Part shown: in pieces, positions 32,918 to 45,081 of the stretch
How the letters are laid out: each line of letters begins with the position of its first letter
Position numbering within the stretch: the stretch's first letter is position 1
Assembly (NCBI GenBank): GCA_905221605.1
Contig: CAJNDS010000416.1
Coordinates: 1-64,000 of the forward strand
Source: Symbiodinium natans
Taxonomy: Eukaryota; Sar; Dinophyceae; Suessiales; Symbiodiniaceae
DNA length: 64,000 nucleotides
Direction of reading: 5' to 3'
Notes under the pieces: generated by a model
The model's database searches: none
What the model was told of the DNA's origin: nothing
The model's input: the letters and a program-made list of their open reading frames with translations, nothing else
Translations under genes and position numbers: made by a program

Positions 32918-32984
<67 letters not shown>

Positions 32985-33312
32985 CATATTATTTATATAA
33001 TTATGTATTTATATATTTATATATTTATATATTTATATATGTATATATTTTTATTTATTTATATATTTATATATTTATATATTTATATATTTATATATAT
33101 TATATATTTATATATTTATATATTTATATATATATTTATATTATATATTTATATATTTATATATTTATATATTTATATATTTATATATTATATATATATA
33201 TATTTATATATTTATATATTTATATATTTATATATTTATATGTTTATATATTTATATATTTATATATTTATATATTTATATATTTATATATTTATATATT
33301 TATATATTTATA
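32862..33312. repeat. AT-rich microsatellite
   Basis: TATATATTTA-type 10-bp units, with a GT run at 32941-32964. Poly-Y/I frames here are artefacts. It borders the helicase-polymerase element on its 3' side. Confidence 0.97.
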
Positions 33313-33836
33313 GAGAGTGCGTCGGAATACAGGCCTGTATTTTTCGTGTCCAAAACACGTATTTTACGTGATTTTACCTTATTTTTAGTATATGTGGACA
33401 AACAACATACACAGGATGTTATAAGAACACAAGCCTGCCCAACTAAGCGCGGCAATATCATAACATCTGACGTCGCCACTCGCAGAAGCTGAGGCTTGAA
33501 CCTCAGTCATCAAAGCATATCCGTGCATATCTATATACCATATTAGACCCACGCATGATGCTGCACTGAATCTCGAGGAATCACGTTTTTTTTTTTCTCC
33601 TGTATGCCCCCGCGTGTGCTTTCAGACTTATAGTGAGAAGACACTTTGGATGTCCTCTGTGTATCCCGTGTGACATGCTAGCGCAACCGTGTGATCTCGT
33701 ACTTCCATCTCATAAGCATATGTGTACCATGTATATCCCGGAATACCATTTGATGAGCATCGTATGATATGTAAGCCTATATGACAAGGTACGAAAACCC
33801 TCACGGCACGCATGTCGCACAGTACCTATGTACGTC
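33313..33836. other. 3' flank of the element, no gene
   Basis: AT-rich sequence unlike the GC-richer regions further out, so it probably belongs to the element. No terminal repeat was recognised. Confidence 0.4.
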
Positions 33837-36023
33837 TCACTTCTTCTTCTTCTTCATGTGATGCTTGATGACTTTCTTCGACGGCTTCCTCAAGACTCTG
33901 TGGGACGACGAAGATGCAGACGGACGCCGACAGATGTACTTCTTCGAAGCTGGACGGATGAGCACCCGAGCATTCTTGGCAGCCTTGGCACGAGCACTGA
34001 AAGGGTTCAAGTGTCGAAGGTAGTCTTTGCGGATCAAGAGGTTACGCTTCTTGACGTACAGTAGGACATAGAAGACATGCGTCAATGGATTCTTCACATT
34101 GAAGGTAGATGCGTAGCCGCGAAACCAGGAGAAGGTCTGCTCGGCAATGGACGAGTTGACATTGCGTAGGCGAAGGTCCAGGCGCCGATGGACGAGAGGA
34201 GAGCATGTACATGTGTCACCATGGGCCCTGGCATGGAAGCGGTCAATGCACCAGTACTTCACCTGGCGAAATTTCGCGTCGGACAGGAATGCCTTTTGAC
34301 ATACGCACATCTTGTCATAGATGACGCAGTCCAGGTTGGGAGCACGTTCCACAATGTTCTGTAGGACTTGTTTAGCGATGTCATTCTTCTCTGGTGAAGC
34401 CATGTTGGTTGCCGACATCACAAGCCCTGTGGCGGGATCGATAGCCATGAACCATCCGTTTTCATGTTGTCTGATGCGGCCATCCTTGCGGGGACGACCG
34501 ACGCGGGCAGGCGTGTTGCCTGGGCACTTTGCTGCGACCTTCTCGCGCCCGTCCATAACGACCTCCTTGACACGGCGCCATTCCGCTGGAGAGAATTGTT
34601 GACGCTGCCACCCATCCTTGTACTCAGAAAGGAAGGCCTCGGAGAGAGGCTGAGTTACCTCTAGGTTGAAGAGTCTGGCTGATTGGTTGCTTCTGGGATC
34701 ACACCACATCTCACGCGCTTCCTGAACCACAGCATAGTACAGCTGCGCAGTCGAGTATTCACGGCGCCAACGGTAGTGTTGCTCCGGGTCATTCCAGAGA
34801 GTATGTGACTGAGCGAACCCAATGGCATTGTGGCTGATACCTCCTCGGAACTGCAAGGCCTCGTGATAGTCCAGGAATGTGCGGTCAAAGCCGACTTTAC
34901 TATTCACAAAGACGTACTTCATGTCCCCAAGAGATAGGCTGTGGTACATCTGCCCGTCTACCTTCCTGTAGTTGTAATGGTGATGTGTTCGACATGTTTT
35001 GCGAGAGCAACGCTTGGTCGTGACCGTGACCTTCTTCACGCCATTCAATGTGTATAGTCGGCCTTGGACGTCGTGCGCAGGATACAGCGGTGAAGCACAT
35101 TCTAAGCAAGTGTCACGAGGAGTCACGATGGATACGAGATCATCCGGGTCGTCTGGGCCGGCTCCACGCAAGTCATACACCGACGACTCTGGCATGCGCA
35201 GAGTTTCTACTGTGTGAGCACGGGTGAGTATGAAAGCAGTCGCAGTCTGGGTCTCACGAAGAACGTCTTCCAAAACGGTGAAGGCAACACCTAGGAGACA
35301 CTCTGGCGCTTGGGAGTCGAAGATAGCGACCTCTGTGTCACCACATATCTTGGCCGCCCACCAATGTCCCGAAGTACCAGATGAATTGGGCTCATGGAAG
35401 GCCAGCAATGCTCCATTCGGAAGTTCCTCTCGAATGAACCCGTGTGGAAGCCATTCCAGCAGATAAGCTTGGCCGTCATCGCCTTGCGACATGCCCAGTG
35501 TCATGTAGTTGAAATCCCGAGCGGACATACCGTGACGCAGATCGCTCTGACTGAGGCTCTCCAGTTCGAGGTCATCTTCCATGTAGTACAAGGACGTCAG
35601 CAAACAGTTTCCTAGGTCTGCGACATCTTCAGTCCGAAAGAACTGCACTTCACCTCGGCGGACCAAAAGACGAGGAACGGACTTGCAAGCCAAGGGAGCC
35701 CACCGACGGATCTGCAACCCCACCCTGGAGTCGTGTGTCTCCATCCCATGACATAGAGCAATGTCATCATGTAGATGACGGCACTGCACGTAGGCACCAT
35801 CAAACAGCAGTACACACATAGCCTGTCCCATCAAACTTGACACTGACTCAAGCATTTTGGCTTCTTCCATTGACAGAATGCCAGAGAGACGTGAGAACTC
35901 TGGATTCCTTCGATCCGAGTAAAGATCCCGCCACATTCTTGAGCTTGGATGATGAACAATGGAGAGAGCAGCAGTCTGGACCTCTGCACAGAGCTTCATG
36001 AGGAAGGGAATTTTGCAGGAGGC
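33837..36023 (-). CDS. polymerase motif C, cysteine-protease-like domain, CxC cluster and KDZ-type C-terminus
   Basis: The frame is open upstream to 36458, but only the part after 36023 fits the protein; the first 145 codons are a shadow of the previous frame. CVLLFDGAYVQC (about 35795) could be polymerase motif C. DLGNCLLTSLYY (Cys near 35606), GHWWAAK (His near 35366) and AIFDSQAP (Asp near 35318) have the order and look of OTU or Josephin-type cysteine proteases. CLEC and CSRKTC (about 34990-35110) form a four-cysteine cluster like those linked to KDZ transposases. Near the end, SSIAEQTFSWFRGYASTFN followed by a hydrophobic HVFYVLLYVKKRN matches the conserved tail of such proteins. The C-terminus is basic and ends in five lysines, suggesting DNA binding or nuclear entry. 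Confidence 0.65.
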   Translation of the reverse strand, partial: ASCKIPFLMKLCAEVQTAALSIVHHPSSRMWRDLYSDRRNPEFSRLSGILSMEEAKMLESVSSLMGQAMCVLLFDGAYVQCRHLHDDIALCHGMETHDSRVGLQIRRWAPLACKSVPRLLVRRGEVQFFRTEDVADLGNCLLTSLYYMEDDLELESLSQSDLRHGMSARDFNYMTLGMSQGDDGQAYLLEWLPHGFIREELPNGALLAFHEPNSSGTSGHWWAAKICGDTEVAIFDSQAPECLLGVAFTVLEDVLRETQTATAFILTRAHTVETLRMPESSVYDLRGAGPDDPDDLVSIVTPRDTCLECASPLYPAHDVQGRLYTLNGVKKVTVTTKRCSRKTCRTHHHYNYRKVDGQMYHSLSLGDMKYVFVNSKVGFDRTFLDYHEALQFRGGISHNAIGFAQSHTLWNDPEQHYRWRREYSTAQLYYAVVQEAREMWCDPRSNQSARLFNLEVTQPLSEAFLSEYKDGWQRQQFSPAEWRRVKEVVMDGREKVAAKCPGNTPARVGRPRKDGRIRQHENGWFMAIDPATGLVMSATNMASPEKNDIAKQVLQNIVERAPNLDCVIYDKMCVCQKAFLSDAKFRQVKYWCIDRFHARAHGDTCTCSPLVHRRLDLRLRNVNSSIAEQTFSWFRGYASTFNVKNPLTHVFYVLLYVKKRNLLIRKDYLRHLNPFSARAKAAKNARVLIRPASKKYICRRPSASSSSHRVLRKPSKKVIKHHMKKKKK

Positions 36024-36027
36024 AAAA

Positions 36028-37554
36028 GGGTTTGCCTCCGTAGAAAATGCGAATGAGCTCCGTTTTGGCCTGATCCACAGAGACATCCATGTAGTCGGCC
36101 ACACAGTAGCGCCACGCTTGGTAATGCTTGATGAAGAGTGGTAGGATGGTGTATTTGCCATCGGACCAGACATCGAGGTCGAAAAGTTTTTGTTGCAGTA
36201 GCCGTGGATGGCAACAAGCAGCGTCAACTTCAGAGCAGTGGAAGAAAGCTTCGGCTCTAGCCTCTCTTGTGAGTTTCTGACCTGCTGCACCTCTAGCAAG
36301 TAGACGACCGTACCCTGGTTGGGTATAGTACTCCACCGTAACGGTGGACATGCCGTCACTGGACGTGAGTCCTGCAGTCTCGTGTCGCGCAATGTACCTT
36401 TCAAGCATCTCTTGACGACGATCCACTCCTTGAAGTGCATATGCTTTGAGTCGCTCAATGTCTACAGTCTCGTCCAGGCTAGTGACAGCCGATCGCAATA
36501 CCGCATCACCAACTCCTCTGACTGTGCAGTGCTGGAGGAGGAAAGTACTATGGTCCTGAAATGCATTCCCGTCCCATGTTTGGATGATGTGCTTCAAGTC
36601 AAATGGGCATGTCCAGTGAGTCCAATCCCCGAAGATGTTAACCCCGCCATGTCGAGCCATCGACTCCTTTAGCCTCGCCCAGTTGATCTGCAGCTTCTCG
36701 GATGTACTATGATCCACTTGTCTGAAGAGCTTGAGGGAGGAATGGTCAATTGCAGACACGAACCGCTGAAGCTTCGTGGTACGACCGCGAGTTGATGTAA
36801 TACAGCCTGGGAGCTCATCAATCTTGTGTAACAAGTACTCCTTGAGAATGGGTCTGGTCGGCGTCGAGGGAACCAACTCAACTATTTCGTCATTGCCATC
36901 GACCAGCATGCGATCATCCCCAGGAGGAACTAGATCACGACCGGACAACTTTGCAGCAAGCCACTGAGTGTCCATCTCCAGCTTGTCACTGATGGACTTC
37001 AGATCATGCAACATTGTCAGACACTCCCCAACCGGGTTCTCTCTGAAGAAGGGCAGACACCAATCACGGAGGTACAACGACGCAGTGACCGGATGACGTA
37101 AATCCGACGCTAATTCCTCTTGTGGAATCAGAAGGTAAATGCCACGATCATGGTCAACTTCGTTTGGGTTCAACGTGTAGGTCGATGTGCCCATGCGAAT
37201 GCAGACCACACGTCTCCGAAGTTGCTCGCACGCCTTGTTGATGTCCTTGCTTTCCTCAATCACCGGTACATTCTCATAGTTCAGTTCCTGGATCTTCATG
37301 GACGTACCAAAGCGTCTCTTGGTAGTGAAACCATAGTTTACCCTGCAGTCGATCTCCTCGTCGACCACAAACCGTTTCCATATATCGGATATGAAGCGAA
37401 CCTTGGAGTCCATTTCCTGGATCCTGACATTCGATTTGTTCCAAACAAGTTCGGCACTTTTTCTGAACTCCGCTCGGTCCAAGAATACACCACAGTCCAG
37501 ACTAGCCGAAGACTTCGAACCAAAGAGAGCTGCATCTAGGATAGCCTCCATGCC
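36028..37554 (-). CDS. helicase C-terminal part and family-A-like polymerase palm
   Basis: Continuing after the first shift, the frame has a Walker B-like NVRIQEMD (about 37410-37435) and a motif C-like MKIQELNYENVPV (about 37260-37300), completing a superfamily-3 helicase. A long linker with no clear domain follows. Then come GYGRLLARG and EVDAACCHPRL (about 36205-36320), like motif A with its catalytic aspartate, and QAKTELIRIFYGG (about 36033-36072), like motif B (K and YG) of family A polymerases. The frame breaks at a run of four A on the plus strand (36024-36027). A start codon inside the frame at 37653 overlaps the previous segment and is unlikely to be used. Confidence 0.65.
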
Positions 37555-37558
37555 TTTT

Positions 37559-38548
37559 ACCATCCCCTCCACGACCAACCTGGAACAGCATCTTTCCCGT
37601 ACAGACGCCTTGGAAGGCAGCACAAAGAAAGCATAGCTTGGCTTGAAAAGCATGCTCGTTCTTGTAGTAGAGAGAGGTCAGGAAGAGTCTCAGCCTTTCT
37701 TTGAGCATAGGGAGATTGATGGACGGGTCTCCTGCAAGGGTATTCTCGTAGAAGTAAGGGTAGTCGAACCGTACGTAACAGTCCTGCGCCTCATGCTTGG
37801 AGCGAATCTCCCAGTTGGAAGTCAAGTAGATGTCACTGAAGCATATACCTTGGGATTTTGGCATGGGCATGTCGCAGTCTTGCAAGAAAAGACGAGAGAG
37901 AACCACGGAGTGTGTCTGAGTCTCCCACGCCTTCCTGTAAGAAGCAAGCATATCAGCGACTCTTCGAGCCCATGTCGCCTTCCATGTTTTGTTGCTAGTA
38001 ACAACTCGGACGTGATCACTATGTTCCTTCGCTATACGAGCACAGACGTCAACGAGCTCCCCACGGCGTTTGCACCCTTCGATGGCTTTGTAAACATAGC
38101 TTCTGGCGTCTGCCCACGACCAGAGTATGTTCTTTTCATCGTTCTCGATGCTTGTGGCAATGGAAACAAAGATGCCCTCGACGGCTGACAAGAAGTCCCA
38201 AGCTTCCAAGCTCAATTTTTCTTCCATGTCCCACGCCCCATCACGAAGGTGGAATAGTTGTCTCTTATGTGCACGCCAGTTGTCTCCGTCAATCAAGAGG
38301 AACAGTACCAGTTTCTGAACATTGGACATCATGTAGTTGGTGGCATTCATGTCGCACAGAAACTTGGTGACGGCCAGGACGAGGCAAGTGTGACGACAGG
38401 CGTTAGGATGCGTGGCAACACTCCAGGACTTATACTCTGACACAATGTCGAGAATCGTCTTGGGCGGCGGAACAGGATCAACAGCAGGAAGATGGGGAAT
38501 CTCACCACCGGGGGGATCTTGTTCGTGAAGGTCTGAGAAGGCACGGAA
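37559..38548 (-). CDS. helicase part, N-terminal segment (D5-like region up to Walker A)
   Basis: The open frame runs from the acceptor near 38549; the first ATG inside it is 38443. It carries a region like the D5/primase-associated N-terminal domain of superfamily-3 helicases, then FLTSLYYKNEHAFQAKLCFL and the phosphate-binding loop GRGGDGK near 37560-37580. The frame is lost inside this loop, at a run of four T on the plus strand (37555-37558). The next frame continues with GMEAILDAALFGS, which is what a helicase needs after GDGK, so one extra base explains the break. It acts in DNA unwinding during element replication (family inference). Confidence 0.7.
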
Positions 38549-38896
38549 CCTGGAAATGAAAAGTATGTGTGTATGATAGTGCAGTACACCATAGCGGCAT
38601 GTGTACAGCTAATGGATATGAAGCACATGATACGATCCAACAATGGTAGTTATGCACCGGATATATAATGTATAAAAGCCATGGCAGGACAGTGGGAGGT
38701 CTATGGAGGAACACGCAGTGGACACATAAGACGATATCAGAAATATTGTGTATAGCAGTCTAACAAGACAAGAGAAAACGAATGCTGTGACATGGAAAGG
38801 TTTATACAGACATTGCATTATACATGCAACCCCACGATGCAAAGAGATTATATGACAGTTCAAGATAATACTACACGACATATATACAAAATCTAC

Positions 38897-39133
38897 GCGA
38901 TATTGCGGCTGTAGTAGCAGCTGGGCACCACGAAGACGCTTTGCTGGAGGTGGATGTGCTGCATCTTGAGGCAATCCAGACGCAGCTAGCTCTAGAGCTA
39001 AAGAAGCCATGTGTGGTGAGCCCATGTTTCGTCTCTCTGATTCCTCGTTCATGAGAGACTCCAAGTCCTTCTCTAAGTCATCGGGAGACGGTCTACCGCC
39101 GACACGCGACGCCGCATCAGGCGGCTCGCTCAT
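38897..39133 (-). CDS. probable 5' exon of the element protein
   Basis: The frame starts at an ATG at 39133 and gives about 79 residues: acidic and serine-rich, beginning MSEPPDAASRVGGRPSPDDL and ending LLLQPQYR. It then runs into GTAGAT (donor candidate, 38896), after which the frame continues only into AT-rich non-coding sequence. A matching acceptor, TTTCATTTCCAG, ends at 38550, and the open frame of the helicase part starts just after it. A simple GT-AG join of these two sites is out of phase by one, so the real boundaries differ or a further shift exists. Confidence 0.5.
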
Positions 39134-39920
39134 AATCGACGAGTAAACAAGTACCAGGATATCACAGCACCAGTGATGTCCCTACCGAACTATTCTTGAG
39201 GAGAATGATGACGGTATGAAAGTTGATGCGAAAGTTCAGCAAGTTCTACTTGGCGGTCATATATAGCAACACATGAGTAGTCTGATGAGACAGGCAAGAC
39301 CCTGAAGACTGGGACAGCCACGATGCTCAGGCACGAGGACCACGACGAACATGGGCCTGTTTACATGTTTTGATCACTATAGAGTGTGAAAAGTTGCTAC
39401 ATGCGATCAGGGATGGCGTGTGTATAAACGTGTGTGCGTAATAGACAGTATCACATATGTATCTTTATTTATCTCGATTTCGTTTCACGATAAACAGATC
39501 TTCTCTCAGCAACATATGTCGTTTATCCGGAAAAGATGTTGGGTTTGACACAAGCATGAGTCTGTGCTGGGTGTGTCACAGTCGCTGCAACTCACTAGAC
39601 TATCGTTAAATAATGGAAGAAATCTTGTCTTTTGTGCTTATCTACCAAAAGAACATGCACGTCGTTAAGTCGTAGTTCTCAAAGTACATTGTAATTATAT
39701 GTAAAACTATTAATTTATATGTACATATATGTATCTAGATAATATTTATCTGTCTCAGTATATCTGTATATACTGACGCTCCCTGCGCATGGAGCTGGAT
39801 GAGTTGGGGACCGTACCTTGCGACGGATGTGCGGATGAAAGTAAAAGCAAAGATACAGATACAAAAAAAAAGGTTACAGCATATAGTAGGATTCTCTGTA
39901 TACATATTGTAAACATACAT
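39134..39920. other. 5' flank of the element, no gene
   Basis: AT-rich sequence with short TATA-like words (39700-39740). No open frame of note and no terminal repeat recognised. Confidence 0.4.
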
Positions 39921-40095
39921 ATTTTATAAGGGGAAGAAGAAGGAGGGGGGCGGGGAGAGGGGGGGGGGGGGAGGGGAGAAAAAAAAAAAAAAAAAAAAGG
40001 GGGGGGGAGGGGGGGGGGAGGGGGGGGGGGGAGGGGGGGGGGGGAGGGGGGGGGGGGAGGGGGGGGGGGAGGGGGGGGGGGGGGGGGGGGGGGGT
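39921..40095. repeat. G-rich homopolymer tract
   Basis: Runs of G broken by single A, with an A18-type run near 39980-39998. Poly-P/S frames on the minus strand are artefacts. Confidence 0.95.
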
Positions 40096-40199
40096 GGGTG
40101 GCTTAAATAGGGTCTATTTGGAAGCTGGGACTCGGGTTTTCTTATAGCCATACACGTTTCCACGAGGGTACGCTGCTGTCACGTCAGTCGTACTATGGA

Positions 40200-42609
40200 G
40201 GCCTCAGGAACAAGAACCAGGTAGTTCCTCTTTTCTCTTCTCTTTTTCTCCTCAATCCTAAAGTCGAAGGCTCTCGTGAGGAGAAGAGAAGGGAGAGAAG
40301 GAGGGAAAGATAAGAGGAACACGATTTTCATGGGAAGAGCCAAGAAAAGAATAGAAGAGAGATAAAACAAGGCGCAAAGAAGATGGTACTCTTCTTTATC
40401 TATCCTCTCTCCCTTATCTCTCCGTTCCCTCTGTCTTTTCGAAATGAGAAAAACAAAAAGAAAGATGAAAAGAAGAAGGGTTAGGAAAAGAGCCGAAGAG
40501 ATAGGCCGAAAAGAGGGGTATGGTGAAGTACGGCAAAGGTCCACGCACAAGGAGTCACCTTCTGCTTACCCTTCCACTGCTTGATTTTACAAGCTCCTTT
40601 CTTGTGTTTTATCAGTTAAAATTAAAAGGAAACAGAAGGAGAGAAGGGAAAGGGAAGTGAGAGAGGAGAGACAACAAGGAGGCCATTTTAATTTCCTGTG
40701 AGTTATCAAAAGGAATGCAATATTATGGGAAGAGCAATGGAAAAAAAGAGTGGAAGAGAAATTAAGACAGGAGAGGGAGGTGCAAAAATAAGGCAAAGAG
40801 AAGATGGTGCCGTTTTCATCTCACCTCTCGTTCTTATCTTCCTCTTCTCTGGTTCTTTTCCCTGTGAAATAAAAAACAAAAGGAAGGACAATGAACATAT
40901 AAAGGAACCCGTTTTCGTTTTCCGTTTGGGCACAAGGAAAAAAAACAGAGGCGATAGGGCGAGAGGAGGGGTTTGCTGAAGCATGGGGAGGGTGTACGGG
41001 CAAGGGGCCAACTCCGCCCACTTCCCCCATCCATTGAAAGAGGAAAAGGAAGGGCCTCCATTCCCCTCTTATTCTTCCTTTCTTGCGTTTTTGTCGTTTA
41101 GAAGGGAACAGGAGAAGAGGAGGGAGAGAGAAGGAGAGAGGAGACATAAAAAGGGTTGCATTTTTAATGGGAAGAGCAAAGAAAAGACCAGAAGAGAGAT
41201 GATGGGAGAAGAGGGGGAGACAAAACAAGGCGCACAGAAAATGGGCAGATAAGAAGAGAGGAAAGGGAATGACCAAGTACAATGAGGAGTTCTTCAATTT
41301 CCCTCCCTATCTCTTATGTTACTTTTCCTTCTTGTGGGGTGTCCCTTTTTCTCTTGATTTTTCTCTTGAAGATGCAGAAAACGATTGAAAAGGACACCCG
41401 TTCCATCGCCCATATGTAGGGAAAGAGAGAGAATCATGAGCATCAGCTGGGCTTGCTGCCAATCCAACATGGGCGTCCCTTTTAATCGCATTCTGTGTCC
41501 TTTTTTCTCTCTTGAAGATGCAGAAAACGATCCAAAAGCACATCTGTTGGAGGAAGAGAGAAGGAGAGAGGAGAGATACCAAGGATTGCATATTTAATGG
41601 GAAGAGAAAGGAAGAGAATAGAAGACAGATGAATAGAGAAGATGGCGCTCTTCTTTATCTATTCTCTCTCCCTTGTTTCTCCCTTCCCTCTTTCTTTTCG
41701 AAATGAGAAAAACAAAAAGGAAGAACTATGAGAAGGAGAAGAGGAAGGAAAGGAACAGAAGAGATAGGCCGAGAGGATGAATATGATGGAGTATTATGGA
41801 AAGGCTCACGCGCAAGGAGTCACCCTCTGCTTACCTTTTCACTGCTTTATCATATGAGTTCCTTTCTCGTGTTTTATCAGTTAAAAGGAAGCGGAAGAAG
41901 AGAAGGGAAAGGGAAGTGAGAGAGGAAAGATAACAAGGATGCTATGTTTCCCGAAGCGTGCTGCAAGGAATAGAAGAGACAGGAAGCAAGGAGACGTAAT
42001 CACAAAATAAGGCGCAAAGCTGTACATATCATCTCTCCCTTGTCTCTCCCTATTCCCTTTCGAACTAGAAAAAACCATTCTTGCTTTTCACAGATAGGTT
42101 CCCTCTCTCCTCTTCAGGAAATCCCCTTTCCCTTATGTTGCTTTTTGAAGCGAATAAGAAAAATAGCAGATAAGAAGAGAGGAAAGGGTCAATTTCCCTC
42201 CCTATCTCTTATGTTGCTTTTCCTTCTTGTGGGGTGTCCCTGTTTCTCTTGAAGACGCAGAAAACGATTGAAAAGGACACCCGTTCCATCGCCCATGTGT
42301 AGGGAAAGAGAGAGAATCATGAGCATCAGCTGGGCTTGCTGCCAATCCAACATGGGCGTCCCTTTTAATCGCAGTCTGTGTCCTTTTTTCTCGCTTGAAG
42401 ATGCAGAAAACGATCCAAAAGCACATCTGTTGGAGGAAGAGAGAAGGAGAGAGGAGAGATACCAAGGATTGCATATTTAATGGGAAGAGCAAGGAAGAGA
42501 ATAGAAGACAGATGAATAGAGAAGAGGGAGAGACAAAACAAGGCGCAGAGAAGACGGCACTCTTCTTTATCTATTCTCTCTCCCTTGTTTCTCCCTTCCC
42601 TCTTTCTTT
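40200..42609. repeat. purine-rich long-period repeat, broken by the assembly gap
   Basis: AGGAGAGAAGGGAAAGGG-type sequence. A segment of about 330 bp at 41292-41620 recurs almost unchanged at 42189-42513. A shorter block (TCTTCTTTATCTATTCTCTC and onward) occurs near 40390, 41649 and 42561. The last copy runs into the N gap, so a long array with units near 0.9-1.3 kb probably stopped the assembly here. Short frames over it are not genes. Confidence 0.85.
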
Positions 42610-42709
42610 TNNNNNNNNNNNNNNNNNNNNNNNNNNNNNNNNNNNNNNNNNNNNNNNNNNNNNNNNNNNNNNNNNNNNNNNNNNNNNNNNNNNNNNNNNN
42701 NNNNNNNNN
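42610..42709. other. assembly gap of 100 N
   Basis: Exactly 100 N, the usual size for a gap of unknown length, joining two contigs. Order, orientation and distance across it are not proven by sequence. Confidence 0.99.
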
Positions 42710-45081
42710 NCACTTGCCAAAGCAATAGGATGCCAGTTCAACGTGGCTGCCTAAGTTTCAGGCTGTCTCTGCGTCGAGCGCAAGCCCCACCAAGGTTTGG
42801 AAGGCTTCGTGTACTCCTAGATGGCATGACATGCCCAAGCATGCTCAATAACACAAGCACACGCAACAAAGCATCGCCCCACACGCTGGAGCATCTGGAG
42901 AATGTGCTTTCAGCAACTGACATGGTTTGTGTGAGGAAGGTCCTTTGCCGGAGAGAGCAGAAGTTTGCACCAGAGTCAGTCCGTTCGCGTCTGCGAATGA
43001 CTTCGCCTCCTCCTTATAGGACAAAGGCAAAAGAGCTGTTTGCAACCAGTTGGGACACGCCCAGCCTTCGTCACCGCAGGCTCACCAGCATCGATCTTCG
43101 TCGCCTGGGTATTGTTTACTTTATGCTTGACAATAACTTTTGTCGGAAGGCGAATCCAACCAAGTGGACCGTAATTGGAGGCCCAGCAACGCACAGGACG
43201 CAGGCAAGTGGTGCCTTGGAAGACACGTCTGCGCCGGAGATCCTCGGGCACAGTGCAGATGTTCGAAGCATGTTTCTATCACAAGTTCGGCTCTTGGGAG
43301 AACATGTGCCACTGAAGGCTGACGGCCATGATGGCCGGGAGTATCCCAGGCGTGCACGCATTCAAACCGTGCAGCATGTCAAAACATGTTAGCTGCAAGC
43401 TGCTCCATGTGGCGATCCATACGATGACGGCAAAGAACATGCCAACTCCGCAGGAATGTTGTTCGATCCCTTGCAGAGAGTCGCAACCCCCAACTCGACG
43501 CATGCGTACTTCAGCGTACTTCAGTAGCCGAATCAAAACATGCGACCATATGTGACTACCAAATGGCTTCAGCTCACATGGTGCTCACATACGCTGATCT
43601 TATTATGGGCTCGGCAGTGGCTCGGCTTTGTTTTACAATCTGCCACGCCTGGAGTCATAGCAAAGTAGAAGTCCACAGACATGCCTCCCGCGAGGCATCT
43701 CACCTCTGATCACACTTCCCACAGGGCAAACTGAAAAAGGGTTGCGTGAACCGCATCAGGATCGCATATGATCGCATCAGGCACACTACGCTCACCACAC
43801 ACATCAACGCATCCATTCTCGCAACTCAGCGAAGCGGCGATGTACCGGCTCGCGGCCTGGCGATTGCAAAAATTGAAAAGGGCTGCAGCGAAATTGTGGA
43901 GCAAATTGTGTAGAGCACTGGAGAGAGCACCTCCTATTTCCATCAACTCGAACTGGAGCCCATGTGCAGGCAGCAGTTCCCGAAGGCCTCAGTAACTTTA
44001 GCACTGAACATGAAATGCTGTCACAGATTGCACCCGGTGCAGGCGAGACACTTCGCCTTAGAGCATCTGCCGGCTCCAGTCGGTACACGCCTGTGAGGCT
44101 CTGTCAGCTCTCGCAGGCTCACAAAGGGGGAAGGCATGTCCAGCGACTTGGGCGCTGTGGAATCACCATGCTCACGCGGATGCGCTGGGCCGGGCCGAGG
44201 CGGGTCGCGTAGCGTTAAAATTAAATCTTTAGGACATTGTGAACATGGAAGTGACGACGCTAAGTCCAGATCAGATGATTATGGATGCCCCCGCCTGACT
44301 CTGCGCCTATCGTTGGAGAAGGTGCAAGATCACCTCTGTGGGCCACTGTTTGAAACAGTCTCGCCAGATCATGCGTTTCACTGCATGGCCTGAAGCTGTA
44401 CGACTGTACGGTCAAAGTAAGGCATAAGGTTTCCTTCTGGATCGCATGTTCGGGTCTTGTCTTCTGAAGAACGTCTATGCGTAGCGTAACTCAGTGTAAC
44501 CTTTTAATCCATGCAATCGTGCGGTCTTTGCCCTCAAGATTGGGCCCGCACAAGTGTTTTCAAGCAGTCGCTGGACGAGACATGTCCTGAGAGAGGAGCT
44601 TGACAATCTTGCATGTCCGGGGTCGCTGCCACGGTTCCAAAACTCCTAGTACTTGGCCTGTGCATGCTGAGCAGCTTTCCGACCCCAGCTGACCCCACGA
44701 CCAGCAGCACAGGCGGTTGGGCATCAGCCATGCCAGAGAAGTGGTCGCCTTATTCCTTTTCTTATGGTGTTGCTTCATGGCGTTGATGGTTTGATTTCTG
44801 GCGTACCCTACGCATGCTGCCACCCCTGCATTCTTGTATTTTGAGATGTGTGCCCATGATCGAATCAGAACCCGGAACAAGCTGGAGCCAATGGCCCTGT
44901 TAACATTCACAGTAGAGTCTAGAGCACATCCGTGGAGTACTCAACTGAAAAGGCTAGCCGGCTAGCTGCGACGCCTGGCGCACGGTCGCTGATCTAAACT
45001 AGTAAAAACTGCTCTTATACAGAAATTTACAGAATAAAGAACCCCTTAGGAAACCATTCATCCTCGTCAATTCAGTCAGGC
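42710..45081. other. no firm gene
   Basis: A plus-strand frame at 42730-43392 (220 codons) and a minus-strand piece near 43830-43940 have some coding character but no recognisable motif. The next topoisomerase II exon after 45082 was searched for here (a TNM/LFD motif) and not found. Confidence 0.4.
44139..44224 (+). repeat. 86-bp dispersed repeat (copy 2)
   Basis: Matches 18968-19053 in the same orientation with one substitution noted. The two copies are 25 kb apart, one on each side of the assembly gap. Confidence 0.85.

Follow-up and report, generated by a model that had tools for sequence, protein, structure and literature searches.

Polintons, or Mavericks, are self-synthesizing eukaryotic transposons that carry a protein-primed family B polymerase, a retroviral-type (rve) integrase and many genes, including capsid genes. 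Elements with a TV-Pol polymerase (those of Sputnik V13 and of the Microcystis phage Ma-LMM01) were proposed in 2008 as replicative transposons in the accessible part of PMC2579912, and no helicase or polymerase of the KDZ transposons (Kyakuja-Dileera-Zisupton, PF18758) is found in the available text of PMC12730594. Here we describe, in a 64,000-nucleotide stretch of the Symbiodinium natans genome (contig CAJNDS010000416.1; the whole stretch is termed the window), a damaged, 5′-truncated copy of a ~7.1-kb transposon that combines features of these systems. One gene, likely with a small 5′ exon, probably encodes a polyprotein of ~1,600 residues in which the predicted modules follow one another, from N- to C-terminus, as SF3/D5-type helicase, TV-Pol/family-A-like polymerase, Cys-His-Asp (C-H-D) cysteine protease, Cys cluster and KDZ transposase.

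With KDZ transposons the element shares a C-terminal domain that matches the last ~two thirds of the model and the D-D-E residues, and, less clearly, an adjacent Cys cluster and ends of the terminal inverted repeat (TIR) type; it differs from them in its target, a TA microsatellite, and in that an 8-bp duplication is clear in one copy only. With TV-Pol elements it shares the order and spacing of D-x3-C-H, K-x7-[NY]-G and D-G and a D5-like helicase partner, whereas in those elements, as far as the accessible part of PMC2579912 describes them, the helicase lies C-terminal to the polymerase or in a separate gene (here it is N-terminal) and the recombinase has a gene of its own (here the transposase forms part of the polyprotein); the profile similarity between the two is, moreover, not significant. 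Like Polintons, it is a eukaryotic transposon with a predicted polymerase, a predicted protease and a DDE-type integrase, but it has one recognised gene, another polymerase type, a KDZ domain and no Pfam match to Polinton domains. In the literature covered, mostly as titles and opening lines of abstracts, we found no account of a KDZ transposase fused with a helicase or polymerase, nor any of KDZ in dinoflagellates, in keeping with a preliminary description of the locus that knew of no earlier report of the combination; by title and abstract opening, papers pairing KDZ with Symbiodinium concern coral photosynthesis, depth and biodiversity. KDZ names reportedly appear in papers on other organisms, such as Chlamydomonas, and on F-box genes.

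Copies, reading frame and relatives of the element

A 1-kb DNA query against the genome (759 Mb in 2,543 contigs, the window lying on contig C416; all counts of places from genome DNA searches are lower bounds) recovered five places, the window included, at 99-100% DNA identity, and protein searches with three window frames returned the same five places as near-identical copies. The motifs of the window are spread over three overlapping open frames, so that this copy carries two frame changes. In C1201, C2445 and C1801, by contrast with the fifth copy, C213, which has a stop and a broken frame, all segments are read in one 1,586-codon frame without a break (1,500 codons when counted from the first ATG). 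A single frame through all segments in three of the five copies indicates one polyprotein and not separate genes. The preliminary description had proposed exactly such a polyprotein, joining a replication module to a transposase module, and had named separate genes in other copies as what would count against it; the sister copies bear the proposal out, and fused homologues exist in Symbiodinium and Polarella. Separate genes or an assembly artefact are ruled out as explanations by the three single-frame sisters and by fused relatives in other genera, and a host gene by the multiple copies with common ends and varied flanks.

All of the motifs named beforehand were located, collinear on the minus strand from the MSEPP start at 39,133 down to 33,840. 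The collinear block itself stood; its given extent (33,837-39,133) did not, as the element runs beyond it, with a right end at 33,313 and homology reaching ~40,035 (Table 1). Upstream of 38,350 the gene probably consists of a separate 5′ exon followed by an intron (~38,900 to ~38,551), as judged from homologue P0003. Between the intact copies, the ratio of non-synonymous to synonymous substitution rates (dN/dS) is 0.29, 0.57 and 0.39, calculated from few changes (synonymous 11-17, non-synonymous 11-24); these values agree with selection on the protein. The copies do not all stem from separate insertions, since C1201 and C1801 have >3 kb of left flank in common at 99% and right flanks that differ, parting at the element right end (L058/L062, L060/L064), which identifies the pair as a segmental duplication with rearrangement at the element end. 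Telomere-like TTTAGGG-type repeats were also seen near the C1201 insertion (L058 7319-7389).

Searching 5.8 billion proteins returned 33 homologues (weakest E-value 6e-177), of which 15 cover at least 85% of the query and 16 carry an organism name, in every case Symbiodinium, Cladocopium or Polarella. A further search, started from an alignment, returned 42 proteins, among them 15 not seen before. Prorocentrum cordatum thereby joined the organisms represented (P0046 and P0052), P0046 matching 88% of the N-terminal query at 33% identity. The further copies that it had been suggested to seek thus exist as four sisters in this genome and as homologues in Symbiodinium, Cladocopium, Polarella and Prorocentrum, all of which are dinoflagellates. 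Both Prorocentrum models stop before the KDZ part, and the fusion is therefore documented for Symbiodinium and Polarella (P0003, P0014) only. Three homologues (P0015, P0016 and P0020) bear the UniRef name 'SF3 helicase domain-containing protein'. Across an alignment of 32 of the 33 homologues (P0025 was left out; residue counts below are out of the rows that hold a residue at the position), the catalytic residues are near-invariant in every module; with the five copies at 99-100% identity and the 33 homologues, this confirms that the observation exceeds chance.

Among the relatives, the gene models P0028 and P0032 combine parts of the element with a glycosyltransferase (PF05637) or a helicase-associated (PF03457) domain and are either model chimaeras or captured genes. 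At C421 (L048/L049), a decayed and strongly diverged relative keeps pieces of helicase, polymerase and KDZ, arranged as in the element, at 26-44% identity.

Table 1 Features of the element copy in the window (positions are those of the window; domain names are assignments from motifs and profiles)
Feature	Position	Strand	Remark
Whole element	33,313-40,035	minus	right end complete, left ~400 bp missing; homology to four other copies stops about here
Putative first exon: MSEPP..., acidic stretch, then PPPAKRLRG basic motif	38,927-39,133	minus	resembles N-terminus of homologue P0003
Main exon start, N-terminal region and predicted SF3/D5-type helicase	37,020-38,551	minus	interrupted by frame change in window copy
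Walker A	37,579-37,556	minus	helicase
Walker B NVRIQEMD	37,431-37,408	minus	helicase
Motif C	37,290-37,270	minus	helicase
Arg finger	37,221-37,204	minus	helicase
Predicted TV-Pol/family-A-like polymerase domain	35,750-36,470	minus	motifs; contains second frame change of window copy
Arg hairpin	36,312-36,289	minus	polymerase-like domain
Motif A EVDAACCHP	36,231-36,205	minus	polymerase-like domain
Motif B RIFYGG	36,051-36,034	minus	polymerase-like domain
Motif C LLFDGAYV	35,810-35,787	minus	polymerase-like domain
Papain-type cysteine protease-like domain	35,200-35,640	minus	Cys-His-Asp order, triad conservation
Protease Cys	35,612-35,592	minus	
Protease His	35,372-35,355	minus	
Protease Asp	35,324-35,307	minus	
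CxxC...CxxxxC cluster (CxC-like)	34,989-35,114	minus	four conserved Cys
KDZ transposase domain and basic C-terminus	33,840-34,640	minus	Pfam PF18758 in relatives
KDZ D1	34,562-34,539	minus	transposase domain
KDZ D2	34,325-34,305	minus	transposase domain
KDZ His pair	34,244-34,221	minus	transposase domain
KDZ E, motif SSIAEQTF	34,154-34,131	minus	transposase domain
Right terminal ~72 bp	33,313-33,384	minus	wholly or partly common to 19 other genomic places
AT microsatellite joined to element right end	32,918-33,312		flank comparison

Identity of the predicted modules

The helicase module is very likely of the SF3/D5 type, as proposed in the preliminary description. Walker A, Walker B, the Asn of motif C and the Arg finger are present in order, with GKGGDGKG in 26 of 27 rows, RIQEMD in 27 of 27, and ELNYEN and LRRR each in 27 of 28. 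When seven segments of the element family were compared with a profile of nine diverse phage D5-type primase-helicases, the helicase segment scored 40.2 (E-value 1.1e-4, for one comparison) and the six other segments at most 18.7; the maximum among 100 column-shuffled versions was 24.3, with none reaching 40.2. In the resulting alignment, Walker A, Walker B, the string 'LK...G.D.I', the motif C Asn and the Arg pair fall roughly in register.

At the opposite end of the protein, what had been described as a transposase-associated tail kept its link to KDZ, but by its sequence it is the KDZ transposase domain itself, with a conserved D-D-E (D1265 in 23 of 24 rows, D1344 in 19 of 20 and E1402 in 14 of 18). 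The curated PF18758 cut-off of 26.6 bits is exceeded by P0002 (32.0), P0003 (29.5), P0027 (33.8) and P0033 (30.0), the second of these being one of the fused homologues; the other, P0014, scores 26.3, below the cut-off, as do P0008 (23.9) and P0005 (17.8), and P0004 has no match. At E≤0.1, 13 of the 32 aligned members match, over profile positions 50-83 to 210-217 of 217. The Pfam match covers the second and third catalytic residues only, the third sitting in SSIAEQTF, and the first D was chosen by alignment position. A whole-genome PF18758 search gave no matches in this genome and equally none in control genomes, and is hence uninformative.

Diverged CxC-KDZ modules were observed elsewhere in the genome (L030-L033 and L039-L043, on C1963, C1413, C735, C2197, C3, C2198, C990 and C1762), as frames of 417-494 amino acids with 25-32% identity, behind a P-loop ATPase frame in L032, L033, L040 and L041; in L043 the same ATPase frame precedes a frame of 428 amino acids. 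The ATPase frame carries motifs such as GRAGIGKT or GWPGVGKT together with LDDP. No polymerase match was found in the stretches searched at these loci (for C735, frames 1.8 kb further upstream were listed). These loci may represent a second kind of KDZ element, one equipped with an ATPase of its own. An identity of this neighbouring ATPase with the element's helicase was considered and not borne out, the helicase segment scoring 15.6 against the ATPase and D5 scoring 20.9 (E-value 0.072).

The polymerase-like segment (residues 630-885) contains a near-invariant Arg hairpin (R683, 29 of 31 rows) followed, in constant order, by D710-x3-C-H (D710, 31 of 31), K763-x7-Y-G (K763, 31 of 31) and D849-G (D849, 32 of 32). 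D710 and D849 would be the two active-site Asp of a TV-Pol, and K763 its fingers Lys. Phage proteins of the Ma-LMM01 type carry N-x-D-x3-C-H, K-x7-N-G-A and H-D-G at the same spacings as the element, and the motifs fall in register when the family is profile-aligned with these proteins and with phage PolA. We took the Ma-LMM01 TV-Pol to be MAP_030 on size, neighbouring transposases and motifs rather than on accession; the Arg of RxxxK, a motif given in the accessible part of PMC2579912, is not at -4 in the element or in the Ma-LMM01 protein used. A joint pattern (D-x3-C-H ... K-x7-[YN]-G ... D-G), written after both families had been inspected, occurs in 6 of 6 Ma-LMM01-type proteins and 33 of 48 family proteins, compared to 4 of 96,000 shuffled family proteins; among the open frames of 200 amino acids or more in the DNA examined, 56 of 483 carry it, all in loci of the element or of Ma-LMM01-type proteins. 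Fragments account for some of the 15 family proteins without the pattern, but P0024 and P0031 span the region and still lack it. A search for further TV-Pols with the Ma-LMM01 protein and its relatives returned close relatives only.

The Cys-His-Asp motifs noted earlier proved to be an invariant triad (C914 in 30 of 30 rows, H994 in 30 of 30 and D1010 in 31 of 31), and the module is likely papain-type cysteine protease-like, a prediction made from the sequence. Its C-H-D order and the strings 'NCLL' and 'GHWW' resemble, as we take it, the OTU or Josephin-type papain-fold proteases. The four Cys of the adjacent cluster are likewise conserved (27 of 27, 24 of 25, 25 of 26 and 26 of 27 rows); of the CxC type first assigned to it, Pfam CxC5 appears in one of 32 members (E-value 0.0011) and CxC4 weakly, at 12.8 bits against a cut-off of 26.9.

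Ends, target sites and small copies

Comparison of the copies gives a left end of 5′-CAGAAAACGTC... and a right end of ...GACGCACTCTC-3′ (in the window at 33,313-33,323, minus strand), for an element length of 6.8-7.1 kb. These defined ends measure ~48 bp (left) and ~72 bp (right); they lie in TA microsatellites and likewise bound copies of 0.1-2.3 kb. The last ~72 bp of the right end recur, whole or in part, at 19 further places, and the left end at 18 other places, which, the four 7-kb copies aside, comprise two contig-edge copies and 16 places with the first 35-48 bp. Both ends occur together at nine loci: seven measure 1.7-2.3 kb, and the two others, of 105 bp each, represent one insertion in duplicated surroundings. 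In the four of the seven 1.7-2.3-kb copies inspected, the longest frame is 137 amino acids, and C1998 has little in common with the 7-kb element beyond ends and simple repeats. An enzyme that recognises the ends would be expected to yield end-only small copies of this kind.

For junction analysis, 21 of 22 left-end places (19 counted as distinct) and all 24 right-end places (22 distinct) were inspected. ATA precedes the element in 17 of the 19 distinct left junctions, and the 20 bp before the element have a mean A+T content of 92% (C259 and C1502 share an identical 20-bp flank and may be one insertion). Right junctions are more varied: in 7 of 22, CTCTC is followed by CAGAAA, CAGAAAAC or TAGAAAAC, which equal the left-end start, and thereafter mostly by AT-rich DNA; 9 of 22 have extra TC units and 6 of 22 pass directly into AT-rich DNA. 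The seven odd junctions belong to four related small copies, to C261 and C2223 (where the right end only was seen) and to C2445, a 7-kb copy; since four of the copies are related, the junctions may not be independent, and one inherited longer right end would be possible. As a family, the small copies show a clear, if imperfect, TIR (score 28, reached by 0 of 2,000 shuffles), which is weak in the 7-kb family (score 16; 47 of 2,000 shuffles), and a palindromic sequence lies close to the right end. The alignment of copy ends suggested in the preliminary description thus yielded terminal repeats and, as to the duplications also expected there, one 8/8 duplication-like TAAATATA, in C213; a plain 8-bp target duplication fits C213 and not the seven junctions with the left-end start.

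Just inside the left end of the 7-kb copies we observed alternating poly-G, poly-A, poly-T and poly-C tracts of up to 27 bases (window ~39,940-40,098), which are also present in the small copy C1998. Beyond the truncated left end, on its upstream side, the window holds CT/GA-rich sequence with look-alike stretches (~40,100-42,750), including a run of N near 42,600.

Models of movement and significance

The mobility-type ends, the single polyprotein and the KDZ domain are firmly established, and we favour, with some reserve, the interpretation that they belong to a ~7.1-kb DNA transposon family of a replicative DDE type that brings its own helicase and polymerase. The KDZ domain would bind the ~48-bp left and ~72-bp right ends defined above and join them to the TA microsatellites in which these are found. 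The element's helicase and polymerase may then make or complete the inserted DNA copy, which could be circular or head-to-tail, or may serve in gap repair, while the protease could cut the polyprotein into working parts or remove a host mark. Given their common ends, the end-only small copies may be mobilised in trans by the element proteins. A more specific course, which we put forward tentatively, is that helicase and primase-polymerase copy the element into an abutted-end form (circle or concatemer) that KDZ subsequently links to TA repeats; synthesis that ran past the right end would explain why the first 6-8 nucleotides of the left end (7/22) or expanded TC units (9/22) appear at right junctions.

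A number of results weigh against a replicative element with its own polymerase. Pfam, NCBIfam and the Protein Data Bank (PDB) gave no match for the helicase (Pfam, 32 aligned members), the polymerase or the protease: NCBIfam returned none for four proteins, a single-protein PDB search gave six weak matches, four of them Enterotoxin H chains (E-values 0.023-0.024) treated as chance, two PDB profile searches gave one weak match each, and PHROGs gave weak matches only (best E-value 0.049). The PF18758 score of the window's own family, 18.4, lies below the cut-off. Against the TV-Pol profile, the polymerase segment scored only 15.8, below the N-terminal (22.7) and helicase (20.3) segments; the cut-out polymerase domain scored 15.6-17.6, a level reached by 34 of 100 shuffles; and whole-alignment profile scores of 19.0 and 26.2 (E-values 0.46 and 0.072) were not significant. 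Neither was the comparison with PolA (17.3 for the polymerase segment, controls up to 15.7). Both profiles are shallow, and a positive control at the same depth, TV-Pol against PolA, also fails at 14.8; as that relationship is a published one (accessible part of PMC2579912), the profile comparison lacks power. Thus, of the family-A-like polymerase proposed earlier, the collinear, near-invariant motifs stand, whereas profile scores do not rise above control segments or shuffles. With scores at background and motifs shared, we call the module TV-Pol-like by motif, an assignment we consider probable. Target duplications are not readable in TA repeats beyond the case of C213, and the KDZ modules in loci where no TV-Pol was seen mean that a KDZ element need not own a polymerase. 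Like the polymerase assignment, replication during movement is something we infer.

One alternative is a plain cut-and-paste KDZ transposon, in which the helicase-polymerase module would have been acquired for donor-gap repair or regulation and would be dispensable for insertion. KDZ is the only recombinase recognised by Pfam; its member Zisupton is a TIR transposon with 8-bp duplications in the available text of PMC12730594, which the duplication-like sequence of C213 and the imperfect TIR of the small-copy family recall, and the genome has KDZ modules where no TV-Pol was seen. Such a transposon would not lead one to expect left-end nucleotides at 7 of 22 right junctions; polymerase and helicase residues conserved as strongly as those of the transposase also speak against it, and we regard it as rather unlikely. 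The right junctions at which the left-end start is repeated as CAGAAA or CAGAAAAC could instead reflect integration of a circular form, site-specific or rolling-circle-like, with the KDZ domain not the active enzyme; a left junction precise at TA and the palindromic sequence near the right end would suit this, but Pfam recognised no tyrosine, serine or HUH recombinase, the D-D-E is conserved and the ends form an imperfect inverted repeat, which together make it improbable.

A remnant of a virus-like or plasmid-like replicon, related to a virophage or transpoviron and using the KDZ enzyme as its integrase, would account for the pairing of TV-Pol with a D5 helicase, known from Sputnik and phage-borne elements (PMC2579912, accessible part). 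In Sputnik V13, however, helicase and polymerase stand in the opposite order. Between their two ends the copies show a single recognised gene and none for a capsid, the small copies carry these ends as well, and of the 30 stretches that two peptide patterns matched in IMG/VR viral contigs none was confirmed as a relative; we judge this origin highly improbable.

If a replicative transposon with its own helicase and polymerase is the correct reading, the element would be a self-copying DNA transposon encoded on one polyprotein, from a KDZ class not known to carry a polymerase in the literature covered. It would link two ideas that have stood apart, TV-Pol elements as replicative transposons (2008) and KDZ transposons. 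Intact recent copies, mapped ends and end-only partners make replication by a DDE transposon's own polymerase directly testable. Furthermore, the family suggests a source of mobile DNA in the genomes of coral symbionts.

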